Shown piece by piece: positions 2,286 through 18,964 of a stretch of DNA of 21,702 nt. Within the stretch, counting starts at the first letter, position 1. The number at the start of each line of letters is the position of its first letter. The DNA is from Candidatus Helarchaeota archaeon. Its GTDB lineage: Archaea > Asgardarchaeota > Lokiarchaeia > Helarchaeales > HEL-GB-A. A program made the translations under genes and the position numbers. The stretch covers positions 1 through 21,702 of the forward strand of contig JABXJU010000060.1 in NCBI GenBank assembly GCA_013375405.1, read 5' to 3'. Below the pieces are notes generated by a model that saw only the letters and a list, made by a program, of their open reading frames with translations, did not search any database and was not told the DNA's origin.

Positions 2286-3200
2286 CTAAATTTTACTTTC
2301 TATTTCTCCTGTAGAACGGGCCCATTCATCTATTGCCGTAGTAACAAGGCTCATTAATTCATCCCGGAAAGTTGGGTTAATTCCGACCATCGGATAACAA
2401 CGAACATTGAGAAGTCGTTCGACTAATTTAGGTCTCATGGCACGAGGTAAGTCCTGTTTATTGCAGAGGCAAAAGGTTAATAGGTCCTGCTTTCGTTTTT
2501 TTATAACATTTAAATATACTCGTTTTGTACTAACAACATTCTCAACTGTACTATCCGTTACTAATAATACTATGTTTGTGCCTCTTAAGAGGAAAGTCCA
2601 GAGTGGAGTAACGTCCCAAATCGTCTAGATCGATAAGGTATAACGCTCCTGCCCTGCGAAATCCCAAATTATTACGTCATAAGTTGCCGAAACATCAAGC
2701 TTTTTGACATCTACTGCTATAGTTGGATTATATTCAATCGGAACAGCAGTGCCCCGCATTAAATTGAGGATCGTGGTTTTGCCAACGCCACCAAAACCAA
2801 CCAACGCAACTTTAATAATGCCACTAAGAACTTTTTCAACCGAGGCTTCAAAATCGGTCCAAATATCTTTTGATTGTCCATCCCATGTGGCTAATTTAGG
2901 ATATTGTTCTTCCGCAAATACGTCTCGTATCCGCTTGATTCGCTGGTGTAATCCAAGTTCGTCATCCTCCATATCAGCGCAAAATACATGAATGAGATCT
3001 CTCTTATTATCGACAGTATAGACAAACTTCAGTCTTCCACTAACCACTGATTTAATAGATCCATCTGGCATGGCTCCAGTAAAAGACGTTAATGCGGATA
3101 GAAAAACTGATACCAAACTCTCGTCAATTTTTATTGCGCCAAAATTTTTTTGATATAGAACTACTCCATCGCCCCGGATTACGTAAATAGAATGAATCAC
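2286..3200 (-). CDS. Longin-type domain fused to Ras/Arf-like small GTPase, interrupted by a 30-nt BHB intron
   Basis: Predicted coding segments are 3200-2640 (187 codons) and 2609-2286 (107 codons plus TAG), giving 294 residues. Residues 1-~110 look like a longin/roadblock-type regulatory domain (MIHSIYVIRGDGVVLYQK). Residues ~128-294 are a small GTPase: P-loop GFGGVGKT at 135-142, switch I Thr160 in NPTIAVDV, DFAGQ at 180-184, and NKQD at 237-240. Read without splicing, the frame meets TAG (2627-2625) after residue 191, yet stays open for another 112 codons that encode the rest of the G domain in the same frame. Removing 2610-2639 gives GQERYTPLWTFLLRGT, as expected of the family. The start is GTG at 3200 with a strong ribosome binding site. 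Such fusions are typical of Asgard archaea and suggest membrane or trafficking-type regulation. The alternatives are a recent nonsense pseudogene or read-through. Confidence 0.85.
2610..2639 (-). other. Predicted BHB intron inside a protein-coding gene (30 nt)
   Basis: On the minus strand, the exon helix GGAG (2649-2646) pairs with CTCC (2608-2605). The central helix CGTT (2645-2642) pairs with GACG (2615-2612), including one G-U pair. The 5' bulge is ATA (2641-2639) and the 3' bulge is TTA (2611-2609). The intron hairpin has CC and ATCG pairing with CGAT and GG across a TT/TT internal loop, with the 7-nt loop ATCTAGA. The archaeal splicing endonuclease cuts after the second base of each bulge, which removes exactly 2639-2610. 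The intron length is a multiple of three, contains the in-frame TAG, and sits between codons. This is read from sequence only; splicing has not been shown. Confidence 0.8.
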
Positions 3201-10879: not shown

Positions 10880-10992
10880 AAAAATCTAAAAAAAATTAAA
10901 AATTGTAAAATACATAATATTAAAATAATTCAAATAATTTTCCTTATCCATAAATAATCAAGAAACTTTTAAGCCGCCGCCTAGCCGCCGTA

Positions 10993-11017
10993 TCAATCAA
11001 AATCGATTGTGGCGACA
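10993..11017 (+). other. Non-canonical tRNA-Asn intron after position 9
   Basis: The hairpin CAATC (10994-10998)/GATTG (11005-11009) is flanked by the 3-nt bulge TAT (10991-10993). A 4-bp helix GCCG (10987-10990)/TGGC (11010-11013) completes most of a BHB motif. The 5' cut after 10992 follows directly. The 3' end is less sure: bulge geometry suggests a cut after 11015, while a standard tRNA body (U8, A9, then G10) needs 11017. Confidence 0.65.
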
Positions 11018-11046
11018 GCACAGTTAGGTAGTGCGACAGGCTGTTA

Positions 11047-11068
11047 TTTTCCCAATTTGAAAGCAGAA
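11047..11068 (+). other. Canonical tRNA-Asn intron at 37/38 (22 nt)
   Basis: A strict BHB is visible. Central helix CTGT (11041-11044)/GCAG (11063-11066), 5' bulge TAT (11045-11047), 3' bulge AAA (11067-11069), and intron helix TTTC/GAAA with a 7-nt loop. Cutting after the second bulge base gives exactly 11047-11068. Confidence 0.88.
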
Positions 11069-11070
11069 AC

Positions 11071-11072
11071 CT
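11071..11072 (+). other. Intron stop-over check inside tRNA-Asn anticodon stem
   Basis: Positions within the 3' strand of the tRNA-Asn anticodon stem; listed only to mark that the exon resumes at A38 (11069) and the stem CCTGT at 11070, directly after the intron. No separate element is claimed. Confidence 0.05.
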
Positions 11073-11123
11073 GTCGGTCGTAGGTTCGAGTCCTACCGGC
11101 GGCGCTATATTTTTCTCAAAGAT

Positions 11124-11217
11124 GCCCCGGTGGTGTAGTCCGGCCAAGCATTTAGGGCTTTCACCCCTAAACTAGCCCCCTAGGGGAACGACCCGGGTCC
11201 GAATCCCGGCCGGGGCA
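11124..11217 (+). tRNA. tRNA-Glu (TTC) with intron in the variable loop
   Basis: The acceptor GCCCCGG (11124-11130) pairs with CCGGGGC (11210-11216), discriminator A. The D arm GTGTAGTCCGGCCAAGCAT is typical of archaeal tRNA-Glu. Anticodon stem TAGGG/CCCTA encloses CTTTCAC (anticodon TTC). T arm CCGGG-TCCGAAT-CCCGG. The region between the anticodon and T stems is 23 nt, far too long for tRNA-Glu. Removing an 18-nt insert leaves the five-base variable loop ACGAC and a 76-nt tRNA. Confidence 0.88.
11171..11188 (+). other. tRNA-Glu variable-loop intron (18 nt)
   Basis: The insert contains CTAG-CCCC-CTAG followed by GGG, which can pair back to the CCC of the preceding exon, a relaxed BHB-like fold. 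AAC occurs at both borders, so the exact cut can slide without changing the product. The 18-nt size is inferred from restoring a five-base variable loop. Confidence 0.65.
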
Positions 11218-11244
11218 CTATCTAGATCAATTTGGTAGCTTTTC

Positions 11245-18638: not shown

Positions 18639-18964
18639 TTGATAGACTAATAGGGTGTCCAGGGCAGCACCTGAAGGAAGTAATTCCGGACCGCAAATGC
18701 TCTATATGGCGGTATAAAAGCCGATGTGAGGCTCTCGGAACGGCTATACGAGCTCTATCACGGCAATGAGGACTGGCCCTATGGGATTGGCGGTGGATAA
18801 GGCCTCTTCTGAAGGGAAGTTGTCATTATCCTCCAATGGGCGAACCCAGCGAGACCAGGGATGGAGCAGCGTAAGTCCTAACGTGCGATGCTCATAGGAT
18901 ACTGGTCTGAGACCAGATAGAGAAGTTCGGTAATCGGGAAGGTGTCGAGTGTCGGGTCTATCAA
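18639..18964 (+). ncRNA. Signal recognition particle (7S) RNA
   Basis: The termini pair over nine bases (TTGATAGAC at 18639-18647 with GTCTATCAA at 18956-18964), as archaeal SRP helix 1 does, giving about 326 nt. An Alu-domain-like block, AAAAGCCGATGTGAGG followed by TCGGAACGG, resembles archaeal SRP RNA. The S domain shows GGGCGAACCC, then GACCAGG, GGAGCAGCG-TAAG, and the later GTGC and CTGGTC that close the helix. A T run follows (18973-18977). The apex of helix 8, usually a GGAA loop, appears shortened. I considered RNase P RNA and rejected it. The family identity is inferred from motifs recalled by eye. Confidence 0.78.

Follow-up and report, generated by a model that had tools for sequence, protein, structure and literature searches.

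The window, by which we mean the whole stretch of 21,702 nucleotides of Candidatus Helarchaeota archaeon DNA analysed here, contains the gene of a longin-like small GTPase that is interrupted by an in-frame TAG (2627-2625, minus strand) within a 30-nt block (2639-2610). This block is very probably a pre-mRNA intron with a BHB structure, spliced by the archaeal tRNA-splicing endonuclease. The BHB intron is a known class; its occurrence in this group of hosts and in these genes, and its recurrence in the lineage, appear to be new as far as could be found. The GTPase intron is probably not an isolated oddity and would be one of several pre-mRNA introns in the lineage. We somewhat favor the broader proposal that Helarchaeota genomes each harbor a standing set of pre-mRNA introns removed by enzymes, possibly numbering in the tens, which lie in or beside the most conserved motifs (the Walker A motif of an RFC clamp-loader subunit, switch II of the GTPase and the region ahead of the iron-sulfur cysteines of a radical-SAM protein) and are gained and lost between near-identical relatives. 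If true, protein genes would be spliced by tRNA-splicing enzymes in the archaeal branch closest to eukaryotes, a process missed by ordinary gene calling.

The broken GTPase frame and its predicted intron

On the minus strand, the GTPase frame starts with a GTG at 3200 and covers an N-terminal region resembling a longin domain, followed by the first half of a G domain of Arf/Ras type; past the TAG it stays open via the NKQD motif to a terminal TAG (2288-2286). The bases themselves confirm what the preliminary description had reported of this locus, namely a stop at 2627-2625 in a longin-GTPase frame that is open beyond it through NKQD, a full BHB around this stop (helices GGAG/CTCC and CGTT/GACG, bulges ATA and TTA), and cuts after the second base of each bulge that remove exactly 30 nt in phase 0 and delete the stop. 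The parts of the gene and of its predicted intron are:

2640..3200, minus strand: exon 1, with the GTG start and 187 codons up to ...WDFAGQERY, comprising the longin-like N-terminal region and the first half of the G domain (from the ORF list and the alignment)
2642..2649, minus strand: 5' exon strand of the BHB, i.e. outer helix GGAG (2649-2646) and central helix CGTT (2645-2642)
2639..2641, minus strand: 5' bulge ATA, predicted cut between 2640 and 2639
2610..2639, minus strand: predicted BHB intron, 30 nt, phase 0, with the in-frame TAG; without counterpart in 24 of 24 aligned homologues and supported by the BHB boundary statistics
2625..2627, minus strand: in-frame TAG in the intron, read from the sequence
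2612..2615, minus strand: intron strand of the central helix, GACG, which pairs with CGTT (one pair being T-G)
2609..2611, minus strand: 3' bulge TTA, predicted cut between 2610 and 2609
2605..2608, minus strand: 3' exon strand of the outer helix, CTCC, which pairs with GGAG
2286..2609, minus strand: exon 2, from TPLW... through NKQD to the terminal TAG, 107 codons and stop (from the codon comparison with Hel_GB_A and Pfam Arf)

The interior of the intron consists of an inner helix CC/GG, two T-T mismatches and a further helix ATCG/CGAT. With the cut after the second bulge base, exon 1 extends to 2640, the intron occupies 2639-2610 (30 nt, phase 0) and exon 2 begins at 2609; short repeats at the intron ends allow four neighboring registers to yield the identical spliced sequence, and the BHB picks one of them. 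As in EndA substrates, two 3-nt bulges on opposite strands are separated by a 4-bp central helix and bounded by flanking helices, and when both bulges are cut behind their second base the product is ERYTPLW, as in all 17 orthologues of the clade described below. Group I and II self-splicing introns are defined by a catalytic core of hundreds of nucleotides, against the 30 nt of the insert.

The spliced product is predicted to be an uninterrupted 294-residue GTPase with the junction DFAGQERY-TPLW. Its Arf/Ras-like motifs are present (G1 GFGGVGKT, G3 WDFAGQ and G4 NKQD), and whereas the Pfam Roc/Ras/Arf matches to exon 1 stop short at the break, splicing raises the Arf score from 47.9 bits (read through) to 61.1 and the Roc score from 48.8 to 61.7. 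In the orthologue P0001, the fold-search rows of which cover residues 121-290 only, the secondary structure predicted for the N-terminal part follows the order b-b-a-b-b-b-a-a, which we take to be that of longin domains.

We propose that the insert, which splits switch II, pairs with its flanks in the GTPase transcript into a strict BHB. The tRNA-splicing endonuclease would cut the mRNA at both bulges, removing 30 nt, and the exon ends would be joined, presumably by RtcB, to give what should be a working GTPase of 294 residues; we infer both the cutting and the ligation of this transcript, and take the enzymes to be those found in relatives. As the BHB is the textbook substrate of this endonuclease, enzymatic BHB splicing would explain the interruption, rather than self-splicing or a ribosome-level trick.

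Homologues across the site, chance and constraint

The best named protein matches of the GTPase come from Helarchaeota or Asgard archaea (Promethearchaeota), and the closest named genome record is Hel_GB_A (L001, 87% by tblastn over the gene). The window frame was aligned with 26 of the 90 homologues found; 24 of these 26 read across the site, and the insert is missing from every one of them. A clade of 17 Helarchaeota-like proteins (P0001-P0016 and P0018; 60-88% identical) has ERYTPLW, exactly as excision gives, and the seven more distant homologues have ERFTPLW or ERFESLW; the window reads ERY-[TLSI*TIWDV]-TPLW. The claim that splicing restores the RYTPLW of the family is thus upheld across the clade (17/17), and the Hel_GB_A gene gives the same insertion result at the DNA level as the protein alignment. 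The preliminary description had also looked to relatives naturally carrying a ten-residue insert with a sense codon as evidence against an intron, and such proteins number none among the 24 aligned homologues, 17 of which belong to the same clade.

This last result bears on a second reading of the locus, in which the TAG is read through by pyrrolysine or another suppressor, so that switch II of the GTPase is longer by ten residues. The frame is open on both sides of the TAG, as readthrough would have it, and some archaea decode TAG as pyrrolysine. However, besides the absence of the ten residues from all 24 homologues, TAG terminates three of the 21 genes of the window, the GTPase included, and a pyrrolysyl-tRNA synthetase at the family cut-off is found in none of the four Helarchaeota genomes; like most control genomes, each of them has weak matches that fall well short of this cut-off. 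Moreover, the Hel_GB_A inserts described below (25 and 28 nt) break the frame, and readthrough is accordingly highly improbable.

The two remaining aligned homologues, P0017 and P0041, end early. P0017, a JGI metagenome protein representing a cluster of 21 members and 89.3% identical over exon 1, ends as ...GQERYTLGY at the intron site of the window, and the protein end by itself suggests that its gene too carries an intron. P0041 ends about 11 residues ahead of the intron site, with ...DRFEVN where relatives have EVIIWDFAGQERY, which may mark another intron position. An assembly artefact in the window, whether a chimera or a sequencing error, is very unlikely, given that P0017 breaks at the same residue, that a 30-nt in-frame BHB-forming insert is not a typical error, and that similar inserts occur in two other assemblies.

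The GTPase gene is without the intron in all four Helarchaeota genomes examined. The intron appears to be sporadic, a distribution that would fit a recent disabling insertion too; it is absent from 24 of 24 homologues and from the four genomes, and its presence elsewhere is suggested by P0017 alone. P0017 shares 97.3% of its exon-1 residues with the insert-free P0003, which points to changes of intron presence between close relatives; in the exon-1 tree the window and P0017, the two putatively intron-bearing rows, do not group. This pattern might stem from several losses, from several gains at a single site or from transfer, and we claim neither one origin nor two. No copy of the window intron was found with up to 7 mismatches in the 2.6 Mb of DNA searched; the same search gave only weak matches for the introns of the Hel_GB_A loci L126 (at 7 mismatches) and L169 (at 6) described below, and P0017 had no match in viral contigs.

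The BHB motif by itself is not beyond chance, with 78 strict BHBs on both strands of the window (at most one G-U pair, intron lengths 16-80). A BHB placed at the homology-defined boundary, however, exceeds chance: its frequency is 2.8e-5 per position and length, and when the intron is shuffled between fixed exons an equally good BHB arises in 467 of 100,000 cases, or in 23 of 20,000 when the flanks are shuffled as well and 6 nt of slack allowed (a looser match, with four central and at least two outer and inner pairs, in 126 of 20,000). This is also the one site in the window where a BHB is combined with splicing that rescues a 70-codon open frame on either side. The same filter, which demands a 4-pair outer helix, returned 25 candidates from 1.21 Mb of two related genomes; L126 (2 pairs) and L169 (3 pairs) fall short of it. 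According to ViennaRNA, the BHB, at -12.3 kcal/mol, lies 1.7 kcal/mol above the minimum-energy fold (-14.0 kcal/mol), in which the central and inner helices are retained. The region is not unusually stable as a whole, with a folding z-score of only -1.15.

The principal rival to splicing is that the gene is a young pseudogene, in which a recent stop-bearing insertion of 30 nt has disabled the protein and the BHB is coincidental. The missing insert in homologues reading across the site is what this reading would lead one to expect, and two features of exon 2 might be taken as signs of decay: one proline kept in close relatives is arginine in the window, and dN versus Hel_GB_A is about twice as high in exon 2 (0.087) as in exon 1 (0.046), dS being saturated. 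Yet synonymous changes account for 55 of the 69 codons that differ from Hel_GB_A in exon 2 (88 of 105 in exon 1), and the 107 codons of exon 2 are free of additional stops and frameshifts. Relative to six close relatives, the window has 3 private substitutions among the 187 columns of exon 1 and 1 among the 96 of exon 2, without excess in exon 2, versus 1 and 4, respectively, for Hel_GB_A (Fisher p 0.047). As Hel_GB_A carries private exon-2 substitutions, the exon-2 excess in dN is not on the side of the window. The substitution pattern weakens the case for a fresh pseudogene, with the proviso that a very young insertion would be undatable by substitutions. Furthermore, the insertion is clean and in frame, its BHB sits at the exact boundary (the 23 in 20,000 shuffles above), and three more protein-gene inserts in relatives fit a BHB at the homology boundary, two of them sharing one site in two species. 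Taken together, we consider a pseudogene improbable, and splicing remains the preferred explanation.

Inserts of the same build in other Helarchaeota genes and the splicing machinery

Stop- or frame-breaking inserts were sought by homology first, without recourse to RNA structure, in 1.38 Mb of Hel_GB_A (120 stretches) and 0.36 Mb of Hel_GB_B (20 stretches). In Hel_GB_A, 369 coding blocks (330 kb) had a homologue from another genome, and among these two inserts, L126 and L169, cleanly split a gene. At each break, BHBs were then fitted over a range of lengths close to the size of the insert; in both cases the best-ranked BHB restores the homologous protein, and intron shuffles with exons fixed were as good in 0 of 100,000 (L126) and 6 of 100,000 (L169). 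A directed search additionally uncovered a TGA inside the RFC homologue of Hel_GB_B. The introns predicted at these loci are:

Hel_GB_A L126, 10955-10982, minus strand: radical-SAM gene, 28 nt, phase 1; ...PSGT followed by IFFESCSFKCVFCQ..., just ahead of the CxxxCxxC motif
Hel_GB_A L169, 7932-7956, minus strand: RFC small subunit gene, 25 nt, phase 2; within the Walker A motif, GPPGT/GKTS
Hel_GB_B L250, inside match G002:C107:47456-48499, minus strand: RFC gene, 27 nt, strict BHB; same codon and phase as in the Hel_GB_A RFC gene

The two RFC introns have diverged while keeping the BHB, with central and inner helices GGGA/TCCT and TGAAA/TTTCA in Hel_GB_B versus GGGT/GCCC and GATAT/ATATC in Hel_GB_A, and the RFC proteins are 35% identical. 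The corresponding RFC gene is unbroken in G003 and G004, and the radical-SAM gene in G002 and G004. No other interrupted Walker A motif was seen among 97 related genomes (91 matched), a result of little weight as most matches start past the motif. If genes were alike, two introns per 369 blocks would crudely extrapolate, from two events, to some twenty per genome. The argument of the preliminary description that fold, frame and homology agree at the GTPase site holds, and is strengthened by these similarly built introns in protein genes of the two relatives, Hel_GB_A and Hel_GB_B.

Short hairpin-bearing inserts of similar size might also be hopped over by the ribosome, as in the translational bypassing of T4 gene 60 or the 'byps' of yeast mitochondria, and the radical-SAM insert does have CAA both directly before it and at its end. 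Bypassing requires matching take-off and landing codons, but the last three bases before the insert differ from those at its end in the window (TAT/GTT) and in the RFC genes (TAC/CAA and AAT/TAA). The feature common to all four inserts is the BHB, and bypassing is barely credible as their explanation.

The homology-first listing comprised 47 single-hit loci (40 listed) and three split loci. Among these the window, L011, L035, L196 and the split L126 and L169 were examined, the remaining listed loci being taken as low-identity or antisense-frame noise; L051 is a split hit in this listing. In the Lokiarchaeota contig Loki_b32, L011 (4653-4682, plus strand) is another small GTPase; its 30-nt insert, which contains a stop, follows DIAGQ immediately and is of the same size as the window intron and in nearly the same place. 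A canonical BHB was sought there and none found, and the locus is not counted. With lengths divisible by three, no BHB was found for the stop-containing insert of L035, and L196 offered a sole weak candidate of 72 nt inside leucine-rich repeats, which would excise a whole repeat; both are probably plain nonsense changes. L203, with a stop between seemingly HdrC- and HdrB-like parts, was judged from the listing to be a gene fission. The break of the G003 radical-SAM gene after NHDIS comes with almost no extra sequence and was read as a small frameshift, and the locus of a TAA attributed to G003:C57 has an uninterrupted frame of 325 codons.

Turning to the enzymes, endonuclease homologues (PF01974) number two each in G002, G003 and G004 and one in G001 (Hel_GB_A). 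Three of these four related genomes (G002, G003 and G004) have alpha and beta subunits and G001 has beta alone; a direct search of Hel_GB_A with alpha found only its beta, and the missing alpha perhaps reflects an incomplete assembly. In comparison with solved structures, G003 alpha is closest to chain 3p1z_B (E 5e-48), presumably the Aeropyrum pernix enzyme. Tyr, His and Lys are all preserved in the alignment, which extends through the loop at 3p1z_B position 44 and places a lysine there. The three residues are taken to be the catalytic triad (PMC6379350), and K44 is reported in the same paper as the crenarchaeal loop lysine that confers a broad substrate range. G003 beta has Thr in place of His and a weak match to crenarchaeal structural subunits too. 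The splicing endonuclease encoded by the related genomes is of the crenarchaeal two-subunit type, and RtcB is found in all four of them.

The tRNA genes of G001 are frequently long, with 17 of 23 matches exceeding 90 nt, and the window has two of this kind:

10984..11105, plus strand: tRNA-Asn(GTT) with two BHB introns, 10992-11016 (tRNA position 8/9) and 11047-11068 (37/38)
11124..11218, plus strand: tRNA-Glu(TTC) with about 18-20 extra nt in the variable region, probably an intron

ARAGORN reports no tRNA-Asn from the raw sequence, a 97-nt tRNA-Asn once the first intron is taken out and one of 75 nt, a normal length, with both out. The tRNA-Asn introns are an indirect sign that the source organism processes BHB introns. 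At the gathering threshold, Rfam finds only the SRP RNA and two tRNAs in the whole window, the former being an archaeal SRP RNA at 18639-18964 (plus strand; RF01857, 111 bits). An open frame antisense to the tRNAs (10944-11147, minus strand; APPVGLEPTTDRFLL...) looks like a spurious gene call.

Comparison with known systems

A search of the open-licence literature of PubMed Central brought up no BHB intron described from a protein gene of any Asgard archaeon, and excerpts of PMC12397907 and PMC12817955 yielded neither Asgard nor further protein-gene introns. This search fits, though it does not prove, the earlier statement that such an intron was undescribed in a GTPase. The companion statement, that protein-gene introns are rare in archaea, stands insofar as the confirmed coding case is cbf5; it has to be tempered, as the window intron is probably one of several in its lineage. 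In the open-licence literature, the confirmed coding-sequence BHB introns are all from one archaeal gene; here they are predicted in no fewer than three distinct genes of the Asgard archaea, among which the origin of eukaryotes is generally placed. The results suggest that gene calls truncate real proteins, including a signature small GTPase and a clamp-loader subunit, and archaeal pre-mRNA splicing becomes testable as a general process.

Archaeal tRNA introns share the motif and have a similar size, the window tRNA-Asn alone carrying two, and differ in that their host is non-coding and no reading frame is restored. In three complete Asgard genomes, excerpts of PMC11291895 put the proportion of intron-bearing tRNA genes at 92-95%. 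Among mRNAs, the BHB intron in the 5' UTR of Haloferax volcanii HVO_1309 is likewise cut at BHB sites by the splicing endonuclease, but lies in an untranslated leader and not in a coding frame, the cleavage being in vitro with in vivo support (PMC7714728, in excerpt). The same excerpt names cbf5 as the only other mRNA example as of 2020, and that of PMC2738675 mentions other protein-gene introns as predicted but unconfirmed.

The cbf5 intron of Sulfolobales and Desulfurococcales, as portrayed in excerpts of PMC2738675, is the closest parallel. The two differ in phylum and gene, and the cbf5 intron mostly has a relaxed BHB in phase 1, versus the strict, phase-0 BHB of the window; cbf5 splicing was shown with cDNA, whereas the GTPase intron is known here from its sequence. 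As cbf5 forms one open frame without interruption in each of the four Helarchaeota genomes, the GTPase intron is not the cbf5 intron. In other respects they are alike: both are BHB introns in a protein gene (16-44 nt in cbf5, 30 nt here), cut between the second and third bulge base, and situated at a codon of a conserved motif, the catalytic Asp in cbf5 and the third residue past DFAGQ here. The cbf5 intron is also gained and lost between relatives, as the GTPase intron appears to be, and is tied to the two-subunit endonuclease (PMC2738675), an enzyme read in the present case from the genomes of relatives.
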